A program made the translations under genes and the position numbers. This document shows positions 10,360 through 51,222 of a stretch of 64,000 nucleotides of DNA, in pieces. Origin of the DNA: Thermobaculum terrenum ATCC BAA-798 (lineage in GTDB: Bacteria > Chloroflexota > Chloroflexia > Thermobaculales > Thermobaculaceae); the NCBI RefSeq assembly GCF_000025005.1, contig NC_013525.1, positions 558,001 to 622,000 on the forward strand. The letters run 5' to 3'. Position 1 is the first letter of the stretch; every line of letters begins with the position of its first letter. Under the pieces are notes generated by a model, which saw only the letters and a program-made list of their open reading frames with translations, made no database searches and was not told the DNA's origin.

Positions 10360-10433
10360 GCGCCAGTAGCTCAGTTGGACAGAGCAGCTGCCTTCTAAGC
10401 AGCGGGTCGGGGGTTCGAGTCCCTCCTGGCGCG
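10360..10433 (+). tRNA. tRNA-Arg (anticodon TCT)
   Basis: Full cloverleaf: acceptor GCGCCAG/CTGGCGC (10360-10366 and 10426-10432), D arm GCTC...GAGC, anticodon stem GCTGC/GCAGC around loop CTTCTAA, T arm GGGGG TTCGAGT CCCTC, discriminator G. Reads AGA/AGG codons. The 3' CCA is not encoded (the genomic sequence continues CCG), so it must be added by CCA transferase. Confidence 0.96.
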
Positions 10434-19856: not shown

Positions 19857-20434
19857 CCCCGAGCCCCTGGAGGAGTGCCCCCTCCCCCCCGCCCCCCTGC
19901 CCCCCCTCCGGGGGACTGCCCCAGGCGGGGTGCCTCTCATGGAGGGGACTCCCCACACCACTCCCCTGTGGATCTTCCACCACGCAGTGGTGAGGGAGTC
20001 TTTGTGTTATGGAGAGGGGATCTCTCCAGACCTCTCCCTTGGGGCACCCCAGGGCTGGGTGTATGGGGTATTCATGGAGCAGACTCTCCACACCGCTCCC
20101 TCTGTTGGATCACCCAGGGACTGGGTGTGTTAGGGATTCATGAGAGGGGACTCTCCACCCCACTCCTCTGTGGATCACCCAGGGCTGGGTGTGTTAGGGA
20201 TTCATGGAGAGGAGGGGGACGGGAGTCGCCGCCCCTCCTCTCCATGGCCTCACCACCCCCCACAAAGCTGCACCATAGTGCCATCCAGGGAGGTTGTGGA
20301 GAACATATGAGTGCTCTGAGGTGTCCTGCTCTGTCCCAGGGACCCCCTCTCCCCTAGCCCCTCTCCCACCACTGGAGAGGGGAACGCTGGGTGCTGTTTA
20401 GGGGATTGGGTCATAGAGTAGGGGTTAATGGAGT
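19857..20434 (+). repeat. Left arm of long inverted repeat
   Basis: Matches the reverse complement of 25320-25897 closely over about 19857-20385 and more loosely further in. Contains three tandem units of about 65 bp around CAGGG(A)CTGGGTG (20050, 20114, 20179) and alternating GGAGAGGGG/CTCTCCAC words. No coding signal. Confidence 0.85.
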
Positions 20435-20600
20435 TTAGGGATGTGGGTTGGGGATGGAGTTGGAGAGGATGAGGGAGGGTGGCCGACTGAGGTAGTGGGA
20501 GGACAAGGGCCACCCCCCTGCTGGAGAGGGACCGGTTGGGGGTGTTAGGGGGTTGGATAAGGGTGGGATTGGAGTGGTGGGAGAGGGTAGTGTTATGACT

Positions 20601-25135: not shown

Positions 25136-25319
25136 TACCATAACGCTGGATGACTCCCGCCCCCTGCCCCTCATAGCACACTCCACTCCCTTCCCTGAAC
25201 CCTCCCTAACCCCTCCAGGCCCCACTCTGCACCGTGATCCCCTCGCCCCTCTCGCCCCCAGGGAGCAGCAACTCGCATCTCTCACCACCCCACCCTCACA
25301 CTCCCATCCCCAAACTACC

Positions 25320-25897
25320 CTCCTGGACTCCACTAATCCCTACCCCATATCCCAGTCCCCTGGACACCACTCAGCGTCCCCCTCTCCAGTGGTGGGAGAG
25401 GGGCTAGGGGAGAGGGGGTCCCTGGGACAGAGCAGGACACCTCAGAGCACTCATATGTTCTCCACGACCTCCCTGGATGGCACTATGGTGCAGCTTTGTG
25501 GGGGGTGGTGAGGCCATGGAGAGGAGGGGCGGCGACTCCCGTCCCCCTCCTCTCCATGAATCCCTAACACACCCAGCCCTGGGTGATCCACAGAGGAGTG
25601 GGGTGGAGAGTCCCCTCTCATGAATCCCTAACACACCCAGTCCCTGGGTGATCCAACAGAGGGAGCGGTGTGGAGAGTCTGCTCCATGAATACCCCATAC
25701 ACCCAGCCCTGGGGTGCCCCAAGGGAGAGGTCTGGAGAGATCCCCTCTCCATAACACAAAGACTCCCTCACCACTGCGTGGTGGAAGATCCACAGGGGAG
25801 TGGGGTGGGGAGACCACTCTCCATGAGAGGCATCCCGCCTGGGGCAGTCCCCCGGAGGGGGGTGGGGGGGCAGGCGCACTCCTCCAGGGACTCGGGG
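25320..25897 (-). repeat. Right arm of long inverted repeat
   Basis: Inverted copy of 19857-20434. The best-matching part is about 25380-25897, including mirrored copies of the tandem CCCAG(T)CCCTGGGTG units. Identity decays towards the centre, so the duplication is old or not under strict gene conversion. Confidence 0.85.
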
Positions 25898-26090: not shown

Positions 26091-27218
26091 ATTGTCCCCA
26101 CACGCGTGGGGGTGAACCGGCCTGTAAGCGGACGTGGTGGTCGTGACCACCATTGTCCCCACACGCGTGGGGGTGAACCGCGCGGGCGCGCTGTCGGGGG
26201 TGGCGCTGCAGAATTGTCCCCACACGCGTGGGGGTGAACCGCCGGCCCAGCACCTGCCCCCAGCGCTGCAGTGATTGTCCCCACACGCGTGGGGGTGAAC
26301 CGGGCCCGTGTGCCCGGAGTGCGAGCCCGACGCTATTGTCCCCACACGCGTGGGGGTGAACCGAACAGGACCTGCAGGCGCTCTCGCAGGCCCAGATTGT
26401 CCCCACACGCGTGGGGGTGAACCGATGCTGCTGGGATCGCAGGCCAAGAAGGGGAAATTGTCCCCACACGCGTGGGGGTGAACCGTACCTCGCCCGGCTC
26501 TGCCCCTCCCGCTGGTAATTGTCCCCACACGCGTGGGGGTGAACCGGCCAAGGCTCAGGGCATGGAGGCAGCCAAAAGATTGTCCCCACACGCGTGGGGG
26601 TGAACCGACCTTCACAGCGCCTCCCTGCCCCTCCTGCAGATTGTCCCCACACGCGTGGGGGTGAACCGCGCACGCCCAGCGGATCATGTGGTCGTTGCCA
26701 CATTGTCCCCACACGCGTGGGGGTGAACCGTCCGGCCAACTCCTCACTCCCGCCCGCCAGGCATTGTCCCCACACGCGTGGGGGTGAACCGGCACCGTGC
26801 GGGCGGTGTTTGCCCGCCTGAACATTGTCCCCACACGCGTGGGGGTGAACCGTCCTCACGCGCCATCTCGACGGATTCCGAAGGATTGTCCCCACACGCG
26901 TGGGGGTGAACCGCTCACGGCGCCCGTCGGCCTGCGGGCGATGCCATTGTCCCCACACGCGTGGGGGTGAACCGCAGGGCGCGGGTCCAGGCGGTAGCCT
27001 CGCGGAATTGTCCCCACACGCGTGGGGGTGAACCGATGCACGCCCCCGTGCGCACGGGCTACCTGCGATTGTCCCCACACGCGTGGGGGTGAACCGCAAA
27101 CTCGACTGGGAGAACTACATATATGTGCATTGTCCCCACACGCGTGGGGGTGAACCGCTCACGGCGCCCGTCGGCCTGCGGGCGATGCCATTGTCCCCAC
27201 ACGCGTGGGGGTGAACCG
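26091..27218 (+). CRISPR. CRISPR array, type I-E-like repeats, 19 repeats
   Basis: Nineteen apparently identical 29-bp repeats starting ATTGTCCCCACACGCG and ending TGGGGGTGAACCG, with an internal stem CCCCAC/GTGGGG. They begin at 26091, 26152, 26213 and so on to 27190. Eighteen spacers, 32 nt except one of 33 (before 26702). The GTGAACCG end is typical of type I-E repeats. No cas gene lies anywhere in the window, so interference proteins must be encoded elsewhere. Spacers 26914-26945 and 27158-27189 are identical. Protein-like frames across the array are artefacts of the 61-bp period. Confidence 0.98.
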
Positions 27219-41795: not shown

Positions 41796-42860
41796 ATGAC
41801 AGTGCGTGTTGGCTTCATAGGAACAGGAGGAATAGCTACAAGTCATCTGCTTAACCTGGCATCTATAGAGGATGCAGAAGTTGTCGCTCTATGTGATATA
41901 GCTCCCAACAGGGTAGAAGAGGCCAGGGAATACGTAAACAGGAACATCCTGACCAGATCGGAAGCCGAGGGCGTAGAGCCCAGGCTGATCGAAGCCGCTA
42001 CGTACACTGACTACAGACAAATGATAAGAAATGAGCGGCTGGATGCGGTCTACATCTGCCTGCCCCCGTTTGCACATGGCGATCCAGAACATGCTGCGTT
42101 GGATGCGAACCTGCACATGCTAGTAGAGAAGCCCGTTGCGTTGGATCTGCGAGTCGCCAACGACATATTGCGCAGGATAAACGAGCAGGGTGTCATAGCT
42201 ACCGCGGGCTATCAATTGAGGTACATGGGCTTTATAGATAAGGCCATTGAGCTCTTGAGGAATACCGTTATCGGACAGACCATAGTCCTGCGCTTTACCA
42301 GGACCCCTGGTACCAGCTGGTATCACCGACAGGATAGATCTGGTGGCATGATGATAGAGATGGCCACTCATCAGGTGGATCTTCTCAGGTTCCTGGTGGG
42401 GGAGATACGTAAGGTCTATGCAGCCGCTGCCACACGAATAAACAACCTGGACAATCCGGAGTACGATATATTTGACGTTAACTCTTCGACCTTCACGTTC
42501 GACAATGGAGCCGTATGCAGCTTCGCTATCAACTTCCTTACCGGCCCTTCTGGCTTGCCAGATCTAAGGGGAGTTCACATCTTCTGCAAGGACTACATCC
42601 TTTCGATGGATATCTCACTCAAGGTCCGACGTGGAGATGATGTCGAGGAGTTTGGTCTGGAACATGACCCAATGCTGGAGGAGGACAAAGCCTTTATAGA
42701 GGCGGTGAAGACCTCCAATCCAGCGATCCTTAGATCTGATTACCTCAGCGCAGTGCGCACACTGGCTGTAACCATAGCCAATGATAGGTCTGCAAGATCT
42801 GGCATGCCTGTAGATGTCAACGAATTGTTGCGGGCGGAGGCCCCGCAGGCTGCCTGGTAA
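41796..42860 (+). CDS. Gfo/Idh/MocA-family oxidoreductase (first)
   Basis: 354 residues from ATG 41796 (AAGGA upstream; 21 extra residues in the longer frame have no family match). Rossmann motif VGFIGTGGIATSHL, EKPVALDL with the catalytic-region Lys, and MMIEMATHQVDLLRFLVG. NAD(P)-dependent dehydrogenase for a sugar or inositol derivative. The next gene, a sugar isomerase, starts 22 bp later, so the two likely act in one catabolic route. Confidence 0.93.
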   Translation: MTVRVGFIGTGGIATSHLLNLASIEDAEVVALCDIAPNRVEEAREYVNRNILTRSEAEGVEPRLIEAATYTDYRQMIRNERLDAVYICLPPFAHGDPEHAALDANLHMLVEKPVALDLRVANDILRRINEQGVIATAGYQLRYMGFIDKAIELLRNTVIGQTIVLRFTRTPGTSWYHRQDRSGGMMIEMATHQVDLLRFLVGEIRKVYAAAATRINNLDNPEYDIFDVNSSTFTFDNGAVCSFAINFLTGPSGLPDLRGVHIFCKDYILSMDISLKVRRGDDVEEFGLEHDPMLEEDKAFIEAVKTSNPAILRSDYLSAVRTLAVTIANDRSARSGMPVDVNELLRAEAPQAAW

Positions 42861-42882
42861 AATTTTCGAGAGGAGAAAGAAG

Positions 42883-43635
42883 GTGCTTATAGGAGCTCGT
42901 CAGGATTGCGTACTAGGTGATACTCTGGAAGATCGCATGAGGATACTAAAGGCCCTGGGATACGACTTCGTTGAGCTGGCGCTCACTCGTTCGGAGATAG
43001 CAGGGCTGGATGCTCATTCCGCCGACTACTACAAGAACATCGTGGAAAGTACCGGCTTACCTATACTCTCCACCAGCATGGGACATTTTGGGCATTTCGC
43101 ATCCCTCAACGATGAGGAAAGAGCAGAGATAGTATCGCATGTGGACAAGCTTATAACCTTCACTCATGACATAGGTGCTGATGCTATACTGCTGGCCACA
43201 CAGGAAGAGAGCCTGAAAGTGAGCGAGTACCTAAGTATCTACAGGCAGCATATTTTACCGCTGGCGGACAAGGCTTTGGACCTGGGAGTAACCTTGGCCC
43301 TAGAGCACGTCAACTGGTACAAGCCCTGGGCTCTAGCTGAGCTAGTGAAGGGACTCAATCATCCAGCGGTTGGCATCTACTTTGACATGGGCAACTGCCT
43401 ATACGTGGGCGAGAACCCAAAGGAACAGGCCAAAATATGCGCTCCCTACACAGCGCATCTACATATCAAAGGGGGACCTGTGGCGCCACTGGCTGCCATG
43501 CCGCTGGAGGAGATCAAGAGCATACTTGAGGCTGGAGGTTTCCATGGGAGGGGTTGTTTGGAGATCATGACGGTGGAGGGCAACAGGCACCTATCCGAGG
43601 CTATGGGCTTGCTGAGGATGGCCGGGTACAAGTAG
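42883..43635 (+). CDS. Sugar phosphate isomerase/epimerase (TIM barrel)
   Basis: 250 residues from GTG 42883 with AGGAGA upstream. Xylose-isomerase-like TIM barrel: YDFVELALTRSEI, ALEHVNWYKP, VGIYFDMGNCLYVGENP with metal ligands Glu/Asp/His, and HLHIKGG. Probably isomerises the product of the adjacent dehydrogenase, as in inositol/hexulose pathways. Its last 158 bp are duplicated at 50027-50188. This copy is complete. Confidence 0.88.
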   Translation: MLIGARQDCVLGDTLEDRMRILKALGYDFVELALTRSEIAGLDAHSADYYKNIVESTGLPILSTSMGHFGHFASLNDEERAEIVSHVDKLITFTHDIGADAILLATQEESLKVSEYLSIYRQHILPLADKALDLGVTLALEHVNWYKPWALAELVKGLNHPAVGIYFDMGNCLYVGENPKEQAKICAPYTAHLHIKGGPVAPLAAMPLEEIKSILEAGGFHGRGCLEIMTVEGNRHLSEAMGLLRMAGYK

Positions 43636-44434
43636 CTCAGAACTTGAAGGTCTCCACCAGTCTCTTGTCGGACTCGCCTGTCACCTGAGCTACCACCTCC
43701 ACATGTGTCTCGAGTCCTGAGCCCTTGAGCTTTTGACGTAGCAGCTCATCTATCTGGAAGATGCCTGCTGCGTTGCTCATATAGATAGTGACCCTTATAG
43801 CTTTCTCCTGCCCTTGGTTTATTTCCACCTTCTCTATGGCGGCAGCGGACACGGAGTGGATGTTGACGTGCCCACTTTCGAAGGGTATTCTGGATCTGCC
43901 CTGGGCCATATCGAGCGCATCGGCCACTCGCACTATGCCTGCCTCCAGAGTGAGGGGTCTACCATCGCTTCTGTGAGTGATGATGGCGTGCAGGGTTTCT
44001 GAGATGATGACTCGGCGTTCAGCTGCAGAGTAGAGGTTACTGAGCAGCTCCTGGAGTTTGGGTAGTGCTATGAAGAGGCTCATGAACTCGTGATCATCTC
44101 TGTGTATGGACATACCGCAGTCATGGAGGAGTGCTGCCAGTACCACAACGACTTCTGCATCGTGCTCGGACATGCCGTGGTCTTTGACTATTGAGGGTTG
44201 TATGTTCTTGGCCATCAGGAGGCGGAGTAACCTAAGAGCCAGATTGGCAACTATCTGCACGTGTACTGGGCCGTGATCGCTCATGCCCAGCCTGTCAACC
44301 CCGTTGACGTTCTGGCACCTCCAGATAGCATGCAGGTCCTCATCGGAGTTCACAATACCTACTAGTTTCTGGAGCGTGGGATTATGTCTTGTCGGCAACC
44401 TGATTATCTCCGAGGGCTGCAACGGGGTGGTGCC
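43472..44434 (+). repeat. 963-bp direct repeat, copy A
   Basis: Same sequence as 50025-50987 (offset 6553) apart from A at 43517 versus G at 50070, the only difference I noticed. Spans the isomerase 3' end and most of the HD-domain gene. It joins a complete isomerase to a 5'-truncated HD gene. Confidence 0.95.
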
Positions 44435-44470
44435 AGACAGATTGACTCTCCTGAAGGCTTCGGAGATCAC
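43637..44470 (-). pseudogene. HD-domain protein, duplicated copy with replaced 5' end
   Basis: Same protein as the intact copy at 50190-51083 from TTPLQPSEIIRLP to the end, but its natural N-terminus is lost at the repeat boundary (44434). A frame from GTG 44470 (ISEAFRRVNLSG) keeps it open to 277 residues without a ribosome-binding site, so expression is doubtful. The HD domain itself is complete (HDAEVVVVLAALLHDCGMSIHRDDH). Confidence 0.7.
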
Positions 44471-44522
44471 GAAAGGAGGGCCGGCCGCTTGGCTCGGCGT
44501 GGGAGAATTCTTCGGCTCTTAC

Positions 44523-45167
44523 CTATTTGGTATCGACGGCGTGTAGGCTTTGGGCCATCGTCTGGAAGTCCTCAAGTAATCCCTCCCTCACGAGCGTTTC
44601 TCTAGAACTGTAGGTGCCATATCCCTCCATCGTCAGATTCATTGGCTGCCCAGCATCCACCAAGAAGGCCACAAGCTGCATTTGATCCTCTGCTGGCCTC
44701 ACAGAGTAAATTACTCCGTTGGCAAGGCCGCTCTCCTTCTGGAACCTCATACCGGTATCCCGCCAAGACATCTCGATGGCCTTGGTCCAGCCAACAGGAT
44801 CGGGATGTTGCCTAAACAGCTCAAGCTGCATGACCCGTAGGTTCTTGTTCCTATCTGCCAACACTCTGTAGTTAGTGGCAGTGAGCACGAGACGATCCGA
44901 CTTGTGCTGGGAGTCGGGAGGCACATAGGCCCGTCTGTCACCCAGGTCCACTGCTTGCCATCTGGCTGGCACGAGCATACCATAGCCGAACTTGCGGTCC
45001 GTCTTGGGAATCAATAGCCCGATGAGGGGGCTATGAGCGCTCGTGGGACCTCCTCCTGGCCTTGTGGGTACTTGGGATGATCGGAGAGCTGCCGCTACGA
45101 GGATGCCTCCTGCCAGCAGGATCACCAGTAGCGGTACGACCAACCATGAGATAATCTTGCGACTCAT
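44523..45167 (-). CDS. Membrane-anchored secreted protein, paralogue of 45862-46896
   Basis: 214 residues from ATG 45167 (GAGGAG upstream). Membrane helix (ISWLVVPLLVILLAGGILVAAAL), then an extracytoplasmic domain with no family I know. It shares a clear pattern with the neighbour at 45862-46896: FGYGMLVPARWQAVDLGDRRAY, LTATNYRVLADRNKN, LELFRQ, IYSVRPAEDQMQLVAF and VREGLLEDFQ. Lies within the segment bracketed by the 963-bp repeat. Confidence 0.75.
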   Translation of the reverse strand: MSRKIISWLVVPLLVILLAGGILVAAALRSSQVPTRPGGGPTSAHSPLIGLLIPKTDRKFGYGMLVPARWQAVDLGDRRAYVPPDSQHKSDRLVLTATNYRVLADRNKNLRVMQLELFRQHPDPVGWTKAIEMSWRDTGMRFQKESGLANGVIYSVRPAEDQMQLVAFLVDAGQPMNLTMEGYGTYSSRETLVREGLLEDFQTMAQSLHAVDTK

Positions 45168-45181
45168 CGCTGTCACTCCTC

Positions 45182-45811
45182 TTAGAAACCAGGGCACCCC
45201 ACCAGGGTGCTCCCTTCCTGCCCCTCATGCTCCCCCGGCAGCGGCACCTCTACCCGCAGGTCATAGCTCTGCCCTGTTTGGGTTCTCACGTCCTCCATCA
45301 CTAGCACTAGATGCCTGACATGTGTCGGTATGGGATTGAAGTCTAATGTGAAATCGACCGTCCTGCCAGGCAAGGCTTTGCCAATGAACCTCTCCTCGGG
45401 CTCTCCTGTCCTCCAGGACCAGCCAGCCCCCACTGCCGGGTAGCGATGCCCCTGGTCGTCCAGTAGGTAATAGGGAGGCGGAGGTGGAGGCTCTCCTTTG
45501 GACCCCTCACGCGTCTCATACAGGATGACGGGGGAGCTGCCAGTGTTTGTTAGGCACAGGTACACTACAGTGTAGGTCAGCGCTATCGCTCTGCCTAGTG
45601 GTTGCTGGGGCTGGTAGCTCACGCGCCACAGCAGCAGCCGCAGTGGACCTGCCTGTGAAGTGCTCACCGCGTACACATCCCCCTCGTAGTAGCTCGTAGG
45701 TTCCACTCCTGCCGGCCCCAGCCTGTTGCACACCACAAGGAAGCCCGCCCACAGGGCGATCGCTCCCACGATCCCAACCACGGTTGCAGCTCTTCTCATC
45801 CTATCAGACAT
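45182..45811 (-). CDS. Membrane-anchored protein, DUF4352-like domain
   Basis: 209 residues from ATG 45811 (start uncertain). N-terminal helix (AATVVGIVGAIALWAGFLVVC), then a beta-rich domain with VYLCLTNTGSSPVIL, YYLLDDQGHRYPA, GKALPGRTVDFTLDFNPI and HLVLVMEDV. This recalls DUF4352/telomeric-repeat-like Ig folds of secreted lipoproteins. A run of prolines (EPPPPPPYY) is inserted. Its stop lies 14 bp upstream of the next minus-strand gene's start, so the two are probably cotranscribed. Confidence 0.7.
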   Translation of the reverse strand: MSDRMRRAATVVGIVGAIALWAGFLVVCNRLGPAGVEPTSYYEGDVYAVSTSQAGPLRLLLWRVSYQPQQPLGRAIALTYTVVYLCLTNTGSSPVILYETREGSKGEPPPPPPYYLLDDQGHRYPAVGAGWSWRTGEPEERFIGKALPGRTVDFTLDFNPIPTHVRHLVLVMEDVRTQTGQSYDLRVEVPLPGEHEGQEGSTLVGCPGF

Positions 45812-45861
45812 TTCCAATCACTACCAATCATGGTACACAGTTATCTATCCAGATTATAATG

Positions 45862-46896
45862 CTAGTAGAATGGCTGGTAGACAGCGCACCACCGAATGGC
45901 GTTGTCTCCGAAGTTCATCACGTGATAGGTATTGGTCCGCAGTCTGGTATCTATACGGTAGGGGTACCAATCGTCACTGACCTTGTACTGGCTAGCAGAG
46001 GTGTGCTTGCCTATGGCCCTGAACAGAAGTGTCGTCCCGGCTTCACAGGGGTAGGTGTCGTTGGTTACGTACGTGTTGTACAGCCATGAGTATCGCAGGT
46101 CGCTATGGCGGTACCAGTGCTCCTCGTACAGCCGCTCGATCATATCCCTGGTAGGATCCCATCGCGTGATCATCTTGTAGGACTCATCGTAGCCACAAAT
46201 GCTGCCATGGCAGTGGTAGTTGCCGACATACTTGGTGCCAGTTGTGCGATCAACTGATGTAATGGAAACTAGTTCATCAGCAGCTATAGCCTTAGAAGCC
46301 GTGGCCTCCACCGCCTCAAGGCTCCCAACCATGAGTGCGAAGTCTGTGAACAGCCCCTCACTCACGAGCTGCTCTTTGGAGCCATAAATACCAGAACCAT
46401 AAAGAGAAGCCACTAGCAACTTGCCTTGATATACCGTATATGCCACAAGCTGAATCTGATCCCATTGGCTGAGTGAATATATCGCGGCCGCAGGTGGCCC
46501 TGGAACCCGTTCATACGGGATATTCTGTGCCTCCCAAAACTGCTCCTGGAACTGCGTCCAGGCACTCAAAGAGGTTTTTTGCCTAAGTAGCTCCAGCCCA
46601 ACGACGGTCATGTTGCTGCTGCCATTTCCCGCTAAGGTGTGAGCATTGGTTACAGTAAGCAGAATCTGATTGTCGGTCTCGCCTGTATTTGTGGGAATGT
46701 ACCCACGCGCGTCTCCCAGGTTCACTTCCTCCCAAGTTGCTGGCACGAACATCTGGTAACCGAACACGCTGTCGGTTTGCTGGACAAATCTCCCAACAAC
46801 AGAACTAGTAGCTGCTGGGACCGCTGCTCTCACTGCTTGTGGAAACATCAGAGCCAATAGTGATATAGCAAATACGATATGAATCCACGTTCTCAT
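45862..46896 (-). CDS. Secreted two-part protein of unknown family
   Basis: 344 residues. Signal peptide (WIHIVFAISLLALMFPQAVRA). Residues about 35-195 form the domain shared with 44523-45167 (FGYQMFVPATWEEVNLGDARGY, LTVTNAHTLAGNG, LELLRQ, IYSLSQWDQIQLVAY). The C-terminal 150 residues are Tyr/Trp/Cys-rich (NYHCHGSICGYDESYKM, HWYRHSDLRYSWLY, YPCEAGTTLLFRAIG), with four Cys that could form disulfides. AAAGGGGA upstream. Expressed from a promoter element also found before the Crp/Fnr gene. Confidence 0.75.
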   Translation of the reverse strand: MRTWIHIVFAISLLALMFPQAVRAAVPAATSSVVGRFVQQTDSVFGYQMFVPATWEEVNLGDARGYIPTNTGETDNQILLTVTNAHTLAGNGSSNMTVVGLELLRQKTSLSAWTQFQEQFWEAQNIPYERVPGPPAAAIYSLSQWDQIQLVAYTVYQGKLLVASLYGSGIYGSKEQLVSEGLFTDFALMVGSLEAVEATASKAIAADELVSITSVDRTTGTKYVGNYHCHGSICGYDESYKMITRWDPTRDMIERLYEEHWYRHSDLRYSWLYNTYVTNDTYPCEAGTTLLFRAIGKHTSASQYKVSDDWYPYRIDTRLRTNTYHVMNFGDNAIRWCAVYQPFY

Positions 46897-46937
46897 GATC
46901 TTATATTCCCCTTTGGCCGACTTCTAGAACTTGGATG

Positions 46938-46970
46938 CACCCTAAAAGTTGTATGTTATGCTACTCTAGC
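46938..46970 (-). promoter_or_regulatory. 33-bp duplicated promoter element, copy 1
   Basis: 33 bp identical to 49939-49971. On the minus strand it includes TAGCAT (46963-46958), the -10 box suggested by copy 2. It lies 42 bp upstream of the 45862-46896 gene. The -35 side diverges from copy 2 (TCGATA). Confidence 0.55.
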
Positions 46971-46978
46971 CGATGCAT

Positions 46979-48358
46979 CTATCGATGCCCACCCATTTGG
47001 TTCTGGCTCCCGCTGGCCCACAAAGGGCCAGCGATGGACATGGTTGGCCATATCCAGAGGCATATCGTATCTCCATGGGAGCCTCCTGCGGCGATCACTT
47101 TACCATCCGGTGACCAGGCAAGTACCGAGGCCTCGTTGTTGCACCCAGGCAGTGTGACCACTCGTCTACCATTGGCGCGCCACACCCTGAGGACGCTATC
47201 TGGTGTCCTCCCAGCCAACCATACTCCATCTGGAGACCAGACTATATTGGATGCCGACCACTCTGCAAGGGGGCCTAGGTATCGATATAGTGTTCTGGGC
47301 TCGGCGTGCGGATCGCGCAAATCAAACATCCTCACGTAGTTGCCGGACATCAGGGCGAGCTTACCACCATCTGGGGAGAACGCTAGGCTTACTATCGGGC
47401 CGTTGCCTGGCAGTTGGGCAGCCACTCTCCCTCTGTGGTCGTAGAGTGACACCAGGCCGTCCTCGTTGCCAGTGGCAAGCATGCTACCATCCGGTGACCA
47501 GATCATAACCGTGGCAGGAGCTCCCAATCTCCCAATCGTCCCAACGAGCTTACCGTCTCGCTGCCACAGCCTGAATCCCCAGGCACCAGCCGCAAGGGTA
47601 CTGCCGTCTGATGACCATTCGACGTGTAACCACTTGCCCCCACCGCCATCCGTGATTAGCATCTTGAGCAGCCTGCCATCCACTCCGAACAGCCGCACGA
47701 CTCCCTTGAACTGGATGAGCCCTGTGGAGCCAGCTTGTTCCTGCTGAATCGATCCCACTGCCAGTATCTGTCCATCTGGCGACCATGCCAGGCTGTATAC
47801 CTGCTCTTCATCCAACCGAAGTGACTTGATCTGCTTACCATGCGCGTCCCACAGCCGGACGGTTCCATCCCTAGATCCGGAAGCCAGCAGTTGGCCATCT
47901 GGCGACCACTCAAGGCTGGTAACCGGGGCTGTATGACCTCTGAGCGTAGTTAGCAGCTTTCCCTTGGCGCTCCATAGGCGCACGGTAGGGTCAAAGGTCT
48001 CGTTCCTGGTGACAACTCCCGAGCTCGAGGCGAGGATCTTGGCATCTGGTGACCAGGCCAGCACCGTCACAGGACCATTGTGGCCGACAAGGACGATCGG
48101 CCGCTTCCTGAGGATGGCCTCAGTTGTCATGCTGGTGGGTGCTGCATATGGCGATACCTGCTGCGTCGGTGTGTTGGTAGTCAGAGGGGGCTGCCCGATG
48201 GCTCTAGCGCTCGGAGTTGGACTCCCCGCAGTTCCTGAAGACCTCACACTCTTGTTGCCGATCACGTCGCCCGAACCATTGGGGGCACGACCAAAGACAC
48301 ACGCGGACAGCAACAACCCTACGAGCAGCAATGACCCCAGCAGTGCAAACTTCGCCAC
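46979..48358 (-). CDS. WD40 beta-propeller lipoprotein
   Basis: 459 residues from GTG 48358 (G-rich Shine-Dalgarno sequence upstream). Hydrophobic leader and lipobox LLLSAC, a Ser/Thr/Pro linker, then about seven to eight WD40-type blades, each with WSPDG...LA.GS and a following VRLW/VRLF strand (for example VTSLEWSPDGQLLASGSRDG). Probably a surface scaffold binding other proteins. The adjacent upstream gene encodes a Cys-rich Tat protein. Confidence 0.85.
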   Translation of the reverse strand: MAKFALLGSLLLVGLLLSACVFGRAPNGSGDVIGNKSVRSSGTAGSPTPSARAIGQPPLTTNTPTQQVSPYAAPTSMTTEAILRKRPIVLVGHNGPVTVLAWSPDAKILASSSGVVTRNETFDPTVRLWSAKGKLLTTLRGHTAPVTSLEWSPDGQLLASGSRDGTVRLWDAHGKQIKSLRLDEEQVYSLAWSPDGQILAVGSIQQEQAGSTGLIQFKGVVRLFGVDGRLLKMLITDGGGGKWLHVEWSSDGSTLAAGAWGFRLWQRDGKLVGTIGRLGAPATVMIWSPDGSMLATGNEDGLVSLYDHRGRVAAQLPGNGPIVSLAFSPDGGKLALMSGNYVRMFDLRDPHAEPRTLYRYLGPLAEWSASNIVWSPDGVWLAGRTPDSVLRVWRANGRRVVTLPGCNNEASVLAWSPDGKVIAAGGSHGDTICLWIWPTMSIAGPLWASGSQNQMGGHR

Positions 48359-48427
48359 GGCGTTATTCCCCCTACCTAACTGCTGCTTAGAGTGTGCAGA
48401 CTCCCAATACAAGTACTATCCGTCCTG

Positions 48428-48817
48428 CTAGCAGTTAACATTAGCTGTGCCCCCACAAGATCCACAGCTTGGTGTCAATACGGCCTTGGAGCAACTATAC
48501 TTGCAGCACTCGCGGCACTCGACAAGTGCTGTGCCGTAACAGCAGGTCCACAGCCACCAACTGGGGTGCGAGGTGCCGTAAGTGAAGCAGTTGCTTGATT
48601 CGGTAGACGTGCAGTCGTCTCGGTACCCGAGATGGCAGCAGTATTTTGTCCTGACTGTATTATAGTTGGTGCAGTTGGTGTGGTAGGCCTCAGCTGTCTG
48701 GATGCGACGGCTCGAGAGGAGCAACAAGAAGCCAAGTGCCGCTTTGCTAGCGATACCGAGAAAGCGTCGCCGATCTACCTGCTTGCTGAGCTTCTCTACT
48801 ACTTTCTCCGTTGACAT
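48428..48817 (-). CDS. Cys-rich Tat-exported small protein
   Basis: 129 residues. Twin-arginine signal (VDRRRFLGIASKAALGFLLLL) up to about residue 43. The mature part of about 85 residues has 14 Cys (KYCCHLGYRDDC, WTCCYGTALVECRECCKYSC). The pattern P-x-WW-x-W-T-C...ECxxCCxxSC faintly recalls the light chain of methylamine dehydrogenase, which is also Tat-exported and Cys-rich, but similarity is too weak to assign. It sits beside a beta-propeller protein. Seven disulfides are possible. Confidence 0.7.
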   Translation of the reverse strand: MSTEKVVEKLSKQVDRRRFLGIASKAALGFLLLLSSRRIQTAEAYHTNCTNYNTVRTKYCCHLGYRDDCTSTESSNCFTYGTSHPSWWLWTCCYGTALVECRECCKYSCSKAVLTPSCGSCGGTANVNC

Positions 48818-49229
48818 AGGCTTACCTCCTGATAACTTCTGTTTATCCTTATCTCAGTTCCACTTACCACTAATGGAGCAGCATACACCTGATAGTAAGC
48901 CCGAGCGCCAGCACGAGCAGTCCATAGCCATGCCAGCGATGCAAGCAGGGACGATACGCTCGCAGTCCCTGGAGGTTCTCCAAAAGGGTGACTCTGTGAT
49001 CGAATAGTAGCGGGACCCACGCTACTGCCAGGGCCCGCCCTAAGCCATGGACTCGAGTTAGCACACAAAATAGTGATTCCTCAACTAGTGGGTGCCCCCA
49101 TGGGCTAAATGGCCTGCTCTGTTGGCCTTTCACAGCTCCACACCCTCCTCGAGGGACAAGAGTTTACCTGGTCTTATTTTCAGTGTAAGCAGGTGACATT
49201 AATAGTGATATGAGCTAGCGCATATCAAG
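48818..49229. other. Gene-poor stretch between Cys-rich protein and crp
   Basis: A minus-strand frame (48870-49133) ends in a hydrophobic stretch (HGYGLLVLALGLTIRCMLL), but its GTG start has badly spaced upstream purines, so I do not call it. A 22-bp near-palindrome TGATATG(N8)CATATCA (49206-49227) lies just after the crp stop, a terminator or Crp/Fnr-type site. Confidence 0.4.
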
Positions 49230-49904
49230 CTAGGTAAGATCGTTCAGTTCGGACAGGAGGCGGTCGGGGTTGGGAACGACTATCCCACGATGATGAGGTT
49301 GATAGTTTATCAAGCCCAGTTCTCGTAGATGGCGCAGCTTCCTGGTGACCTCCTCTTGGCTTGTGCCTATCATACCAGCTAGCTCCTGATGGGTGGCAGT
49401 AACTAATCGTTGCTCATTGGCTTTGGCCAGTCTGGAAAGTGTGCGCGCCAGGCGGGTGCATACGTCCATGAACACGACCTCCTCTATGAGGTCATATGCC
49501 TTCCCCAGGCGCTCGCTGAGCTGACAAAAGCAATAGCTGGCAATCTCAGGATCGGAGATAATGATTTGTTGAAAGTGCTCACGCGGTACACGACATATTC
49601 CCGTCCCGTCCGCTATCGCTTCCAGGAGGTTGCTTGGTTGTAGTATGGGGTCGTTAGGGGCAAGCCCGAGGATGTCACCAGTTACGAATTTGGCTAGGGT
49701 GAGTTCTTTGCCTTGGGTGGAAATCCGATAGACTCGAGCGAGGCCGCTGACGAGGATAAGAGTCCTATCTCTCCCTTCTTGCAGATCTATTATCAGTTGT
49801 CCCTGTGCATACAATCTGTAAGAAGTCATGTTGACTAGAGTTCTCAACAAATCCTGGGGCATTCCAGAGAAGGGGTATAACTGATGTAGGATTGATTTAT
49901 CCAT
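49230..49904 (-). CDS. Crp/Fnr-family transcription regulator
   Basis: 224 residues. Cyclic-nucleotide-binding-like beta barrel (SYRLYAQGQLIIDLQEGRDRTLILVSGLARVYR, about 30-110), dimer helix, then a winged helix (THQELAGMIGTSQEEVTRKLRHLRELGLI). The N-terminal Fe-S cysteines of Fnr are absent, and the cAMP-pocket Arg/Ser pattern is not evident, so the ligand is unknown. Transcribed from promoter element copy 2. The shared element may mean it regulates itself and the secreted protein (inference). Confidence 0.9.
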   Translation of the reverse strand: MDKSILHQLYPFSGMPQDLLRTLVNMTSYRLYAQGQLIIDLQEGRDRTLILVSGLARVYRISTQGKELTLAKFVTGDILGLAPNDPILQPSNLLEAIADGTGICRVPREHFQQIIISDPEIASYCFCQLSERLGKAYDLIEEVVFMDVCTRLARTLSRLAKANEQRLVTATHQELAGMIGTSQEEVTRKLRHLRELGLINYQPHHRGIVVPNPDRLLSELNDLT

Positions 49905-49938
49905 CTCTCGCGGTCTTACAATGGTGTGTTAATCCATC

Positions 49939-49987
49939 CACCCTAAAAGTTGTATGTTATGCTACTCTAGCACTATGCATCTGTCAA
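49939..49987 (-). promoter_or_regulatory. Promoter with duplicated element, copy 2 (crp)
   Basis: Minus strand: TTGACA (49987-49982), 17-bp spacer, TAGCAT (49964-49959). The 33-bp part 49939-49971 is identical to 46938-46970. Start predicted near 49952, 48 nt before the crp ATG. Confidence 0.65.
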
Positions 49988-50024
49988 TCTTTGTGGCAGC
50001 ATAGAGTAAATCTGTGCACATCAA

Positions 50025-50987
50025 GGGGACCTGTGGCGCCACTGGCTGCCATGCCGCTGGAGGAGATCAGGAGCATACTTGAGGCTGGAGGTTTCCATGG
50101 GAGGGGTTGTTTGGAGATCATGACGGTGGAGGGCAACAGGCACCTATCCGAGGCTATGGGCTTGCTGAGGATGGCCGGGTACAAGTAGCTCAGAACTTGA
50201 AGGTCTCCACCAGTCTCTTGTCGGACTCGCCTGTCACCTGAGCTACCACCTCCACATGTGTCTCGAGTCCTGAGCCCTTGAGCTTTTGACGTAGCAGCTC
50301 ATCTATCTGGAAGATGCCTGCTGCGTTGCTCATATAGATAGTGACCCTTATAGCTTTCTCCTGCCCTTGGTTTATTTCCACCTTCTCTATGGCGGCAGCG
50401 GACACGGAGTGGATGTTGACGTGCCCACTTTCGAAGGGTATTCTGGATCTGCCCTGGGCCATATCGAGCGCATCGGCCACTCGCACTATGCCTGCCTCCA
50501 GAGTGAGGGGTCTACCATCGCTTCTGTGAGTGATGATGGCGTGCAGGGTTTCTGAGATGATGACTCGGCGTTCAGCTGCAGAGTAGAGGTTACTGAGCAG
50601 CTCCTGGAGTTTGGGTAGTGCTATGAAGAGGCTCATGAACTCGTGATCATCTCTGTGTATGGACATACCGCAGTCATGGAGGAGTGCTGCCAGTACCACA
50701 ACGACTTCTGCATCGTGCTCGGACATGCCGTGGTCTTTGACTATTGAGGGTTGTATGTTCTTGGCCATCAGGAGGCGGAGTAACCTAAGAGCCAGATTGG
50801 CAACTATCTGCACGTGTACTGGGCCGTGATCGCTCATGCCCAGCCTGTCAACCCCGTTGACGTTCTGGCACCTCCAGATAGCATGCAGGTCCTCATCGGA
50901 GTTCACAATACCTACTAGTTTCTGGAGCGTGGGATTATGTCTTGTCGGCAACCTGATTATCTCCGAGGGCTGCAACGGGGTGGTGCC
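50025..50987 (+). repeat. 963-bp direct repeat, copy B
   Basis: Second copy of 43472-44434. Joins a truncated isomerase fragment to a complete HD-domain gene, the reverse of copy A. Confidence 0.95.
50027..50188 (+). pseudogene. Sugar isomerase 3' fragment
   Basis: Last 53 codons of the isomerase (GPVAPLAAMPLEEIRSILEA to MAGYK) without start or barrel core, identical to the 42883-43635 gene except one Lys-to-Arg codon. Created by the duplication. Confidence 0.92.
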
Positions 50988-51083
50988 TGAAGGCGATACC
51001 TCCGGCCCTGGTTCCTGGGGAAGGTCAAAGCCTTCTGACTCCTGCCTGTCTATGCTTGTAGCTCGGTTGCTTTCTTCCTCCAA
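50190..51083 (-). CDS. HD-domain phosphohydrolase-like protein, complete copy
   Basis: 297 residues from TTG 51083, chosen because GGAGGT lies 5 nt upstream and a TATAAT box lies at 51128-51123. The HD domain reads SDHGPVHVQIVANLALRLL, HDAEVVVVLAALLHDCGMSIHRDDHE and a later RVADALDMAQGRSRIPF, so the metal ligands H...HD...D are present. The C-terminal 90 residues are a beta-rich domain (KVEINQGQEKAIRVTIYM). Probably a metal-dependent phosphohydrolase, possibly on nucleotides. Intact N-terminus marks it as the original gene. Confidence 0.85.
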   Translation of the reverse strand: MEEESNRATSIDRQESEGFDLPQEPGPEVSPSGTTPLQPSEIIRLPTRHNPTLQKLVGIVNSDEDLHAIWRCQNVNGVDRLGMSDHGPVHVQIVANLALRLLRLLMAKNIQPSIVKDHGMSEHDAEVVVVLAALLHDCGMSIHRDDHEFMSLFIALPKLQELLSNLYSAAERRVIISETLHAIITHRSDGRPLTLEAGIVRVADALDMAQGRSRIPFESGHVNIHSVSAAAIEKVEINQGQEKAIRVTIYMSNAAGIFQIDELLRQKLKGSGLETHVEVVAQVTGESDKRLVETFKF

Positions 51084-51222
51084 GATCCACCTCCATCTTG
51101 TGCACAACTTACAAGCTATGAAATTATAATGCGTGTTACACTCTAGAAGATTTTTATCTGTTAAGGTATAACAATCGTCAATCAGAGGTCTAATTAGTCT
51201 TAGTTTTCTTCTTGGAGAAGGG

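Follow-up and report, generated by a model that had tools for sequence, protein, structure and literature searches.

A gene module for predicted exported proteins between 963-bp direct repeats in Thermobaculum terrenum: a candidate single-crossover insertion

RESULTS

A near-identical direct repeat with abrupt ends

We analysed a window of 64,000 nucleotides from chromosome 1 of Thermobaculum terrenum (positions 1-64000, corresponding to C1:558001-622000; coordinates below are those of the window). Base-by-base self-comparison of the window at an offset of 6553 revealed a 963-bp direct repeat, with the left copy at 43472-44434 (the tail of an isomerase gene plus the region encoding residues about 40-305 of an HD-domain protein) and the right copy at 50025-50987 (an isomerase relic plus the HD gene). 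The two copies are identical at 962 of 963 positions, just as the initial annotation of this stretch had claimed on first reading. The sole mismatch, A at 43517 and G at 50070, replaces K by R in the tail of the isomerase; beyond it the copies match without a break for 917 bp. Both ends of the repeat are sharp: upon gapped extension, the residual similarity past the left edge was no better than that of 20% of random pairs (P about 0.2), and that past the right edge no better than that of 44% of random pairs, neither being significant. Short matches are found at the margins, namely GGGGACC at one junction and a 9-bp match, CCTGAAGGC, close to the HD-side junction (a posteriori P about 0.006).

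Searching the whole genome, we found the 963-bp sequence in these two copies only, and twenty sampled 20-kb stretches of the T. terrenum genome (400 kb) contained no exact direct repeat of at least 60 bp. Chance cannot account for near-identity over 963 bp. Since assemblies tend to break down at long near-identical repeats, we considered whether the structure is an assembly artefact, and regard this as barely credible: the two copies have different flanks and are told apart by one base, and the T. terrenum YNP1 genome is finished as two replicons (2,026,947 and 1,074,634 bp) from 9.5x Sanger coverage of an 8-kb clone library together with 454 and Illumina data, with directed finishing work on repeats (PMC3035366).

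Reciprocal intact and partial genes at the two junctions

At the left junction lies an intact gene for a TIM-barrel sugar isomerase/epimerase-like protein (42814-43635, plus strand; Pfam AP_endonuc_2, 2.5e-26), which overlaps a Gfo/Idh/MocA gene upstream of it. The isomerase gene ends at 43635 and the convergent HD gene at 43637, so that both ends fall inside the left repeat. This left HD gene is a 5'-truncated ORF of 277 aa (43637-44470, minus strand) in which the native N-terminus has been swapped for a handful of residues encoded by the insert, which thus supplies the new 5' end. All conserved residues of the core (PF01966) are retained, including the HD motif, and the loss is confined to about 40 N-terminal residues; these hold a QEA/SxGFxLP motif that is kept in three family relatives and absent from most distant homologues. 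The right junction shows the reverse arrangement, with an intact HD-domain gene (50190-51107, minus strand; ORF and homologue searches) next to an isomerase relic that comprises the last 54 codons (residues 221-273). The ORFs at both junctions therefore bear out the pairing read from them initially, i.e. intact isomerase with truncated HD on the left and truncated isomerase with intact HD on the right.

The truncated HD gene lies 52 bp downstream of the last gene of the insert and on the same strand, and could therefore be expressed by read-through; its GTG start is preceded by no obvious Shine-Dalgarno sequence.

Homologues of the HD protein are 70-74% identical within the family, and further ones occur in bacteria and archaea. 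In none of the HD homologues examined, family members included, is an isomerase gene found beside the HD gene, and neither the family members nor 400 genomes of the phylum yielded a close homologue of the isomerase. As no close relative searched has this isomerase, the uninterrupted isomerase-HD locus was not found in relatives, and a history of duplication and deletion at this site is therefore possible.

The enclosed module

The segment between the repeats (44435-50024, 5,590 bp) is present once in the genome, with no second copy elsewhere in a genome search, and contains six genes, all on the minus strand. The first encodes a CRP/FNR-family regulator (49230-49904; Pfam and NCBIfam). It is followed by genes for a Cys-rich protein carrying the twin-arginine-like signal RRRFLG (48428-48817), a WD40 beta-propeller lipoprotein with the lipobox-like sequence LLLSAC (46979-48412; Pfam) and three further proteins predicted to be exported: one of 344 aa, whose family is present in few relatives (45862-46896), one of 211 aa with a homologue at about 42% in a family relative (45182-45817), and one of 224 aa that is a paralogue of the N-terminal part of the 344-aa protein (44523-45197; 36-39% identity). 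Five predicted exported proteins and one regulator gene accord with the secreted products and dedicated regulator first noted here, the export calls being our readings of the N-termini.

The N-terminal part of the Cys-rich protein has a weak, sub-cutoff NCBIfam match to TIGR04117, a Cys-rich radical SAM target family, and the protein matched nothing among solved structures. Structure prediction for the 344-aa protein was unusable (mean pLDDT 42). Sequence comparison hints that the N-terminal domain of this protein might be an extracytoplasmic sensor domain. The same domain recurs in genome G224 (L131 1867-4275), where it makes up the outer portion of what appears to be a membrane anti-sigma protein encoded next to an ECF sigma factor gene.

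The module also contains a 33-bp exact repeat that occurs just twice in the genome by self-comparison and genome search, both times on the minus strand: copy 1 (49936-49971, or 49936-49987 with the promoter-like site) lies just upstream of the regulator gene, where it overlaps a promoter-like site (TTGACA-17-TAGCAT), and copy 2 (46935-46970) lies just upstream of the 344-aa gene. Taken as a pair, the two copies are likely to be promoters or leaders belonging to a private regulon of CRP type.

Composition and relatives of the module

The initial annotation had called the enclosed genes foreign. We find this claim unsupported, as the composition of the insert is close to that of its flanks and two of the module genes are paired in a genome of the same family. 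The GC content of the insert is 54.6%, compared with 52.6% and 51.4% in flanking stretches of the same length, and the GC3 of the insert genes overlaps that of the flanking genes. In tetranucleotide usage the insert correlates with chromosome 1 at 0.33 and the flanks at 0.55 and 0.45, which places the insert at the second percentile of 45 background windows and weakly favours an outside origin. On a larger scale, the entire window forms a broad GC hump: it averages 55.4%, exceeds 61% near C1:578-586 kb and declines to about 48-50% on either side; chromosome 1 averages 47% (sampled) and the second chromosome 64%.

Homologues of the 344-aa and 211-aa proteins (about 39-42%) are encoded adjacent to each other in the same-family genome G003, where the gene pair is located next to ndk-mutS and near Kelch beta-propeller genes (L104 9600-15885, L137 9706-12767). 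The T. terrenum mutS-ndk pair is itself conserved, at 1.50 Mb of chromosome 1 and about 0.9 Mb from the module, and has no module beside it. The module has thus changed place between lineages and, judged by these homologies, belongs to the gene pool of the family. No replication, mobilisation, integrase, transposase or phage/structural genes were detected among the insert ORFs with Pfam, NCBIfam and PHROGs. A plasmid or phage origin was considered and rejected: neither protein nor DNA matches were found among plasmids and phages, and the PHROG matches were only to generic WD40/HTH families. The insertion site has no tRNA gene, the only one in the window being at 10360.

Insertion by a single homologous crossover

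The best explanation, to which we assign a probability of roughly 0.55, is that the module was inserted into the isomerase-HD pair by one homologous crossover with a DNA circle. A circle, or a circle-like joint, would have carried the module together with a 963-bp stretch copied from the isomerase-HD junction, and one Campbell-type crossover with the chromosome at the tail-to-tail gene pair would have duplicated this stretch. Each gene would then be present once in intact form, accompanied by an isomerase relic and by an HD paralogue truncated at its 5' end. The circle, its capture of the 963 bp and its source, in the lineage itself rather than in a plasmid or phage, are the parts of this scheme that we infer. 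As in Campbell-type integration, the insert lies between two nearly identical direct copies of a chromosomal sequence (962/963 at a spacing of 6553), and intact and truncated genes alternate at the two junctions. We favour this reading because the repeat is sharp-ended with one mismatch, with the isomerase intact only on the left and the HD gene only on the right; because the repeat occurs only twice and the insert only once in the genome; because the insert forms a coherent module, all on one strand, that has a regulator of its own and a private repeated promoter; and because the module has changed place relative to G003.

Several points count against the single crossover. The 963 bp must have been joined to the module in an earlier, unexplained step, composition backs an outside origin only weakly, and no relative searched has the uninterrupted isomerase-HD locus. 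The proposal of a circle that recombined once with the chromosome, made when the repeat was first noted, is supported in part: it fits the reciprocal partial genes best, and it has gained no vehicle, with neither integrase nor replication genes nor a plasmid or phage match. Searches of the genome and of plasmid and phage records turned up neither a circle or plasmid nor a donor locus.

Tandem duplication is a frequent event in bacteria, and its later reduction by deletion gives rise to direct repeats that carry partial gene copies. If a larger segment that held the isomerase-HD pair with a module close by was duplicated, and deletions then trimmed the extra gene parts so that the module stayed between partial copies, neither circle nor donor would be required. 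Such a history would agree with the module's resemblance to resident lineage DNA and could have used the 9-bp match near the HD-side junction as a short-homology joint. We nevertheless consider it rather unlikely, as it takes about three events, no leftover second copy of the module or its neighbours is seen, and the sole relative with module genes has them next to ndk-mutS and a long way from HD. Switching of the replication template while a break was being repaired could have copied repeat, module and repeat in one complex event and so produce the same geometry, and short matches do lie near both junctions; however, the original module should then persist elsewhere, the genome holds no other copy, and the similarity that extends past the left edge does not reach significance. 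This route strikes us as distinctly improbable.

Another alternative concerns the age of the insertion and not its route, and overlaps with the other explanations: the insertion may be old, by whatever mechanism, with the repeats kept identical by gene conversion, in which case near-identity is uninformative on age. One mismatch in 963 bp agrees with the initial statement that either the insertion happened recently or homogenisation keeps the copies alike, and the two cannot be cleanly separated on one difference. Conversion acts readily on direct repeats that lie close together, and the truncated HD copy retains its open frame and full core. An old, partly converted duplication would be expected to have decaying margins, but here the ends are sharp and the isomerase relic is undecayed beyond one base. 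Since residual similarity at the repeat ends is not significant, we favour a recent event and hold the long-converted old insertion to be a tentative alternative that is unlikely to apply.

RecA should be able to excise a 6,553-bp circle between the repeats and so, on the single-crossover reading, to restore the ancestral pair. A population switch in which some cells do so would remove the exported-protein operon along with the HD paralogue read from it; we consider the existence of such a switch highly improbable.

DISCUSSION

The T. terrenum locus is a real and probably recent rearrangement of an ordinary, known kind, and not a new system. It shares with Campbell-type integration an insert placed between direct repeats of a shared segment, with an intact and a truncated gene copy per junction. 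It differs from the integration of a circle of that type in that vector backbone, integrase and replication gene are absent here and both circle and donor are postulated. The nearest described natural relative that we found is the displacement of rhs C-terminal tips, for which circular intermediates have been proposed (Jackson et al. 2009, PMC2935791). There too, natural remodelling by one circle crossover is proposed to have left homologous gene fragments and intervening genes (PMC2935791). The T. terrenum locus, in contrast, is not an rhs or toxin locus, displays one event, and has a shared segment that covers the ends of two convergent genes unrelated to each other. With a tandem duplication reduced by deletion it has in common direct repeats with partial gene copies; such a history differs in needing several further losses, and no extra copy is left over here.

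Being a clean example, the rearrangement is instructive. In a finished and phylogenetically isolated genome it offers a compact natural case, readable from sequence, of what would be the gain of genes through plain homologous recombination, with no mobile-element machinery involved. An event of this kind would also yield a truncated, core-complete paralogue downstream of a newly gained operon. The pattern of a long direct repeat with reciprocal intact and truncated genes can be searched for in other genomes.

Other repeats in the window

The window contains further repeats of different types. A 516-bp inverted repeat (19942-20457 and 25304-25819) has arms that are 96% complementary and 4.8 kb apart, and around it, between 20.5 and 26 kb, are many scattered copies of a palindromic motif of roughly 60 bp (ATTCCCGATTTCCCGAT...). 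A CRISPR-like array at 26091-27218 is composed of 29-bp repeats at 61-bp spacing, and one 90-bp repeat-spacer stretch within it is exactly duplicated (26885 and 27129).
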